The notes under the pieces: generated by a model
Seen by the model: the letters and a program-made list of their open reading frames with translations, nothing else
Database searches by the model: none
Told to the model about the DNA's origin: nothing
Translations under genes and position numbers: made by a program
Shown: positions 1,461 to 2,124 of the stretch, piece after piece
Numbering within the stretch: position 1 is the first letter of the stretch
Layout of the letters: the number at the start of each line of letters is the position of its first letter
Source: Bacillota bacterium
Lineage (GTDB): Bacteria > Bacillota > Sulfobacillia > JAIMAT01
Direction: 5' to 3'
NCBI GenBank assembly: GCA_029961055.1
Contig: JASBVM010000004.1
Coordinates: 1 to 64,000 of the forward strand
DNA length: 64,000 bases

Positions 1461-1476
1461 GGAGGAAGGAACGATC
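1461..1476 (+). promoter_or_regulatory. Strong ribosome binding site with an AUC (or ACG) start codon for tmk
   Basis: GGAGGAAGGA (1461-1470) is followed by ACG (1471) and ATC (1474) in the tmk frame. ATC lies 8 bases from GGAGG and gives a protein beginning M-Q-G-L-F-L-S-F-E-G, matching the usual start of thymidylate kinases. No in-frame ATG, GTG or TTG lies between the upstream terminator and the P-loop. The start is inferred, not proven. Confidence 0.6.
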
Positions 1477-2124
1477 CAAGGGCTCTTTCTGAGCTTCGAG
1501 GGCGGCGAGGGCGCCGGCAAGTCGACCCAGGCGGCTCGCCTGGCGGACGCGCTGGCGGCCCGGGGCGTTCCGGTGGAGCTGGTGCGGGAGCCGGGCGGGA
1601 CGGCGCTGGGCGAGGCGGTGCGGGCTGTCCTCCTGGAGCGGCGCGAGACGCCGCTGGTGCCGGCCGCGGAGGCGCTCCTCTACCTGGCGGCGCGGGCACA
1701 GCTGGTGCGGGAGCGGATCCTGCCCGCGCTCGCCGCAGGGCGGTGCGTCGTCGCGGACCGCTTCGCCGATTCCACCCTGGCCTACCAGGCCTTCGGCCTG
1801 GGGGAGCCGATCGAGCTGGTGGAGAGTGCCAACGGATGGGCGACGGCGGGAAGGAAGCCCGATCGCACCTACCTCCTCGACCTGGATCCGGAGGTCGGGC
1901 TGGAGCGGCACGAGTCGGAGCATCCCGTGCGGGACCGTATCGAGGCGCGGGGCTTGGAGTACCATCAGCGCGTGCGGGAGGGCTACCGCCGGCTGGCGCG
2001 GGCCGAGACGGGGCGGTTCCTGGTGCTGGCGGCGGAGGAGCCGGTGGAGCGGCTGCACGCCATCATTCTCGAGGACGCTTGGCGGCTCTGGTGTTCTCGC
2101 GGGGAGCGGGGTGGGGAAGCGTGA
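1474..2124 (+). CDS. tmk: Thymidylate kinase
   Basis: Thymidylate kinase phosphorylates dTMP to dTDP with ATP, a cytosolic step of dTTP synthesis. Read from ATC 1474 the protein is 216 residues, normal for the family. It opens with the conserved F-E-G strand and a P-loop GGEGAGKST at residues 10-18; a DRF motif (equivalent of DRY/DRF) and the arginine-rich lid follow. The gene heads a tight operon and its TGA overlaps the GTG of darA as GTGA. The only canonical in-frame starts upstream (for example ATG 1318) lie in or before the rrn terminator and would append an unrelated arginine/proline-rich tail. The product is certain; the start codon is the odd point. Confidence 0.93.
   Translation: MQGLFLSFEGGEGAGKSTQAARLADALAARGVPVELVREPGGTALGEAVRAVLLERRETPLVPAAEALLYLAARAQLVRERILPALAAGRCVVADRFADSTLAYQAFGLGEPIELVESANGWATAGRKPDRTYLLDLDPEVGLERHESEHPVRDRIEARGLEYHQRVREGYRRLARAETGRFLVLAAEEPVERLHAIILEDAWRLWCSRGERGGEA

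Follow-up and report, generated by a model that had tools for sequence, protein, structure and literature searches.

Thymidylate kinase is probably read from a conserved AUC start codon in one genus of Bacillota

To our knowledge, the bacterial genes established to start with a codon other than AUG, GUG, or UUG are very few, and such starts are not searched for by gene callers. The textbook non-AUG start is that of infC, the classic IF3-autoregulated gene. Repression by IF3 has been shown for infC (AUU/AUC) and for sigR (GUC) (PMC5472188), weak third-base pairs are disfavored by IF3 (PMC10158994), and AUU, AUA, and GUC starts lower expression (PMC5472188, PMC13009471). In Staphylococcus aureus, conserved AUU and AUA starts, which rely on extended Shine-Dalgarno (SD) pairing, give about 10% of the expression obtained with AUG (PMC13009471).

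Here we analyzed the first 64,000 nucleotides (forward strand) of contig JASBVM010000004.1 of a Bacillota bacterium (GenBank assembly GCA_029961055.1), referred to below as the window, in which tmk, the gene for thymidylate (dTMP) kinase, an enzyme required for DNA synthesis, is probably read from a very rare AUC start codon, as it is in the other genomes compared from its uncultured genus. The gene resembles infC in its AUC codon within the genus, in its strong SD sequence, and in the conservation of an AUN start among relatives; it differs in that the infC product regulates its own gene, whereas no link between tmk and IF3 is known, and in that the AUN start of infC extends across most of the class, whereas the AUC of tmk is confined to one genus. 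Like the GUC of Streptomyces sigR, the codon is a non-canonical start kept within a genus and absent outside it, although sigR encodes a stress sigma factor for which the IF3 effect is experimental, whereas tmk is an essential enzyme gene whose start is deduced from sequence comparison. With S. aureus cvfC1 (AUU) and ccpN (AUA), tmk shares a weak start combined with an extended SD sequence and conserved among relatives, and with Escherichia coli pcnB (AUU) it shares a weak non-canonical start; these are, however, other genes with other codons, and the value of about 10% of AUG was measured in S. aureus. We conclude that tmk probably joins a known kind, the non-canonical AUN starts, as an essential gene new to that kind in the literature searched, where we found no case of a non-canonical tmk start.

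The window begins inside a 23S rRNA gene, and the tmk start site lies 1.5 kb from the contig end. All features described here are on the forward strand. The rrn operon continues with 5S rRNA (1107 to 1223) and ends with tRNA-Asn (GTT; 1240 to 1315), and Rfam matches around the tmk start site were confined to rRNA and tRNA. The tmk gene (1474 to 2124; 216 amino acids) has a frame open from ATC 1474 through TGA 2122-2124, and its product matched TIGR00041 (155.5 bits; curated cutoff, 83.25) and PF02223 (156.2 bits; cutoff, 27), both over the full length. A single match was found in the genome, with no second tmk copy. The stop codon overlaps the GTG start of a cyclic-di-AMP receptor gene (yaaQ/darA; 2121 to 2450; PF06153, 164 bits) in a GTGA junction, which the three genus members compared have in common, and genes for DNA polymerase III delta′, a PSP1 protein, and a tetrapyrrole-methylase-family protein follow. 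A tmk cluster behind an rrn operon is a familiar arrangement in Bacillota, known from Bacillus subtilis. The order 23S-5S-tRNA-Asn-tmk is also found in a second genome of the genus (G001), while in the third (G002) the contig opens with a 5S fragment followed by tRNA-Asn and tmk.

An initial annotation of the window had reported that the frame has no ATG, GTG, or TTG from the rrn terminator to the P-loop, and our reading of the frame agrees. In-frame ATG codons occur at 1177, within the 5S rRNA, and at 1318, directly 3′ of tRNA-Asn and 5′ of the terminator hairpin; none of the three canonical codons occurs in frame between ATG 1318 and the P-loop, and the first one 3′ of the ATC is GTG 1573, past the P-loop. 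Ahead of the start lies GGAGGAAGGA (1461 to 1470), and the SD sequence GGGGAGG (1459 to 1465) is the same in all three genomes. Its GGAGG portion (1461 to 1465) is separated by 5 nt from ACG 1471 and by 8 nt from ATC 1474, the latter as annotated, and a spacing of 8 falls within the 7-to-9-nt peak of the conserved canonical starts of the genus. The candidate AUC start codon (1474 to 1476) precedes the P-loop by 9 codons. From residue 2 onward, the product aligns with residue 2 onward of Thermus Tmk (5x7j), placing the ATC at the position of Met1; the alignment thus bears out the earlier view that ATC 1474 yields a standard N terminus.

The comparison within the genus covered three genomes, all of one genus and order, with Tmk proteins 79% (G001) and 75 to 76% (G002) identical to that of the genome under study. 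In the three-genome alignment, ATC is invariant; the preceding codon is ACG, GCG, or GCC, and the following codon is CAA, GGA, or GAG. GGAGG stands 8 nt from the ATC in all three genomes behind a spacer of variable sequence, and no canonical start is found near the ATC in G001 or G002. In G002, an in-frame stop lies 13 codons 5′ of the ATC with no canonical codon between, so a non-canonical start is needed in that genome and a longer N terminus is ruled out there. Its recurrence in G001 and G002 makes this arrangement more than chance. In five genes, 43 of the 44 Ile codons are ATC, which makes it the standard codon for Ile here and leaves the third base of the conserved ATC little informative by itself. 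The initial annotation had proposed either AUC or ACG as the start and an alignment of relatives as the way to tell; ATC is present in every genus member compared and is further favored by spacing and N terminus, whereas the ACG is not conserved. Nor does any of these three genomes carry ATG or GTG at this place, the situation in which the annotation would have ascribed the ATC to a sequencing error; canonical starts appear only in more distant relatives of the class.

Among 44 tmk genes scored from the same class, the genus itself being left out, 42 have a canonical start, mostly 8 to 18 codons before the P-loop; 9 codons, the position of the ATC here, is a frequent one. The AUC start of tmk is therefore, as far as sampled, specific to the genus. 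In one further genome (G035, L016), the only canonical codon near the P-loop is a GTG four codons before it. The tmk gene of another (G029, L011) has no canonical start and reads TAG ACG CTG TTT ATC; in this genome, the sole one of its family compared, a non-canonical tmk start may have arisen independently. The rrn-tRNA-tmk order with a canonical tmk start is found in G024, G043, and G055, which belong to one genus of the class, and in G051 (L025), and the rrn neighborhood therefore does not explain the AUC.

Behind the rrn operon, sequence and predicted folding reveal an intrinsic terminator hairpin with a T-rich tail (1325 to 1362; −33.5 kcal/mol), which was not among the matches of a simple terminator scan; its counterparts behind the tRNA reach −27.8 kcal/mol in G001 and −34.6 kcal/mol in G002. 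Between the hairpin and the SD sequence is a conserved block, TTCTG[A/G]TAC[C/G]TTACGC (1443 to 1458), a probable tmk promoter. Across the three genomes, TTCTG[AG]TAC[CG]TTACGCGGGGAGG is kept ahead of the variable spacer and ATC. The block contains an extended −10-like element, TGnTAnnnT (TG 1446-1447, TACCTT 1449-1454), and occurs once in each of the three genomes, solely at tmk; a scan with the sigma-70 two-box consensus gave no site before tmk. We infer a promoter of tmk's own, with a predicted mRNA start at about 1461 and a leader of approximately 13 nt. Given the strong terminators and the conserved extended −10-like element, tmk is probably not transcribed by read-through from the rrn operon. 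The role that the initial annotation had assigned to the rrn neighborhood thus finds no support, since both elements recur in all three genomes and the same gene order elsewhere goes with canonical starts.

Other routes into the tmk frame were considered and rejected. An upstream extension of the protein conflicts with the stop in G002 and shows no conserved codons. For a prfB-like frameshift entry, inspection of the three-genome alignment revealed no conserved upstream frame, and the predicted mRNA starts only about 13 nt before the tmk start. The first 60 nt fold differently from one genome of the genus to another, which speaks against an attenuating leader structure. A special initiator tRNA with anticodon GAU was discarded as well: one initiator-type tRNA motif was found per genome, with anticodon CAT, plus one further match in G002 with anticodon TAT, and none with anticodon GAT was found in the three genomes.

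As a control of the method, the comparison recovered the known case of infC. This gene is single copy (contig C1, 19.0 kb, in the genome under study) and starts with ATC behind GGGGGTGAT in each of the three genomes compared within the genus; across 33 infC genes of the class, the expected column holds AUC, AUU, or AUA in most. Since infC, too, has an ATC start in these three genomes, sensitivity of the tmk start to IF3 is plausible by analogy.

We surveyed about 400 kb of the genome under study (the 64-kb window and stretches of 146 kb and 194 kb) against G001 for other genes of this type. Earlier automatic start surveys had been too noisy, because off-frame reading frames are conserved in this GC-rich genome. 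A filter based on GC content by codon position flagged tmk, nadE, and ygfA, that is, 3 of the 233 genes evaluated clearly lack a canonical start; the filter misses genes of the infC type, in which a canonical codon lies a few codons inside, and infC makes four. In a control genus of the same class (G043 versus G024), no clear case emerged among 136 genes evaluated, five flags having been judged by eye. The difference between 3 of 233 and 0 of 136 is too small to count, and we claim no enrichment. One of the control flags is a selD-like frame (UGCKLGP; G043 contig C1, about 962 kb, L221) with an internal TGA, probably encoding selenocysteine. In nadE (contig C1, about 42.93 kb; 229.8 bits to TIGR00552, NAD synthetase), the arrangement GGAGG-N8-ACG recurs in the three genomes, each time with a spacer unrelated to the other two; there is no canonical codon nearby in the genome under study or in G001, and G002 carries a GTG a few codons past the ACG. 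From this conservation, ACG is the probable start of nadE, and it is a more interesting lead than the AUC of tmk. For ygfA (5-formyltetrahydrofolate cyclo-ligase; 162 bits; contig C1, 57.3 kb), none of the three genomes offers an ATG, GTG, or TTG start, and a CTG behind GAGAAG is the sole conserved start candidate; the gene overlaps with the last part of a biotin-carrier-like frame. Two side observations came from the same genome. In yqgF/ruvX (contig C1, about 135.6 kb), TGA GGG CGG CTG stands against an in-frame GTG in G001, which may reflect a CTG start or an indel. The prfB gene (contig C9, about 186.3 kb) carries the usual SD-like GGAGG and CTTTGAC programmed frameshift site.

Taken together, we consider it likely that tmk is initiated at AUC with a compensating SD sequence, from its own promoter and at a low level open to further reduction by IF3. 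The ordinary initiator tRNA (CAU) would read AUC 1474 by pairing with its first two bases only, and initiation would need acceptance of a C-C mismatch at the third base. The strong GGGGAGG at the best spacing would make up for the weak AUC; its pairing with the anti-SD sequence is assumed, because the 3′ end of the 16S rRNA is not assembled. Transcription would proceed from the promoter with the short leader, 3′ of the rrn terminator. Tmk would be held at a low level by the weak AUC; this level should be set by the strength of the SD sequence and be sensitive to IF3, with IF3 lowering it further, as with infC. The overlapping GUGA junction would probably pass the low level on to the cyclic-di-AMP receptor gene.

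The other non-canonical starts in the genus make a general tolerance a serious alternative to a tmk-specific switch. The genus would then accept non-canonical starts behind a strong SD sequence, promoter and SD strength being tuned to compensate, and the AUC of tmk would be the same start serving no regulatory purpose. The ACG of nadE at a fixed spacing in three of three genomes, two of which lack a canonical start for the gene, points this way, as do ygfA, the ATC of infC, and the yield of three clear cases plus infC in some 400 kb of a single genome; by the same token, the lack of a canonical start in at least three further genes (infC, nadE, and ygfA) weakens the suggestion of the initial annotation that tmk is kept low on purpose. 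The present counts from the two genera nevertheless do not show the rate of such genes to be unusual, and a very weak codon fixed genus-wide in an essential gene is hard to explain by drift alone; we regard general tolerance as possible rather than probable. Dynamic control by IF3 goes a step beyond a fixed low level: a shortage of IF3 relative to 30S subunits would increase initiation at AUC and raise dTTP supply, which would tie DNA precursor synthesis to translation capacity. The AUC start common to tmk and infC in the same genomes and the IF3 repression of sigR (GUC) and infC (AUU/AUC) (PMC5472188) are consistent with such control. However, nadE and ygfA would respond likewise, and a predicted leader of about 13 nt whose folds differ among the three genomes offers no conserved structure, so that we consider it unlikely.

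Placing the start elsewhere accounts less well for these data. Tmk of Aquifex and of Mycobacterium begins at the residue equivalent to Leu4, and CTC 1483 and CTG 1489 are conserved in all three genomes, but these codons lie 17 and 23 nt from GGAGG; the far-upstream ATG 1318 is absent from the relatives, lies 5′ of the terminator hairpin, and is cut off by an intervening stop in G002. A start at any of these positions is very unlikely. ACG 1471, one codon upstream of the ATC, shares the frame and follows GGAGG at 5 nt, and ACG also seems to be the start of nadE in this genus; this reading is nonetheless hardly credible, as the relatives have GCG and GCC there, a spacing of 5 is rare among the conserved starts of the genus, and the nadE ACG itself has a spacing of 8. 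The fragmented, metagenome-type assemblies and the location of the site near a contig end in two of the genomes (that under study and G002) might suggest that the gene is broken or that the sequencing or the assembly is in error. Yet the same ATC in three separate species effectively excludes a sequencing error, the frame is intact over 216 codons, substitutions are biased to third positions (11, 13, and 31 variable columns at codon positions 1, 2, and 3 over 60 codons), and this is the only tmk copy in the genome; the probability of error or decay is negligible.

With AUC initiation as the preferred reading, tmk is likely to be miscalled, extended into the tRNA region here and truncated in relatives: ATG 1318 or ATG 1177 would draw gene callers through the tRNA and terminator, giving genes at 1318 to 2124 or 1177 to 2124. 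A simple comparative test, combining lack of a canonical start in every relative, an invariant codon, and a fixed SD distance, can find such genes without experiments. A broader, doubtful possibility is that start choice is relaxed throughout the genus, an SD sequence at 8 nt selecting AUC (tmk and infC), ACG (nadE), and perhaps CUG (ygfA) as fixed starts of essential genes, in which case dozens of genes across the genome would be misannotated. If the sensitivity of the tmk start to IF3 is true, the supply of DNA precursors would be linked to the fidelity of translation initiation.
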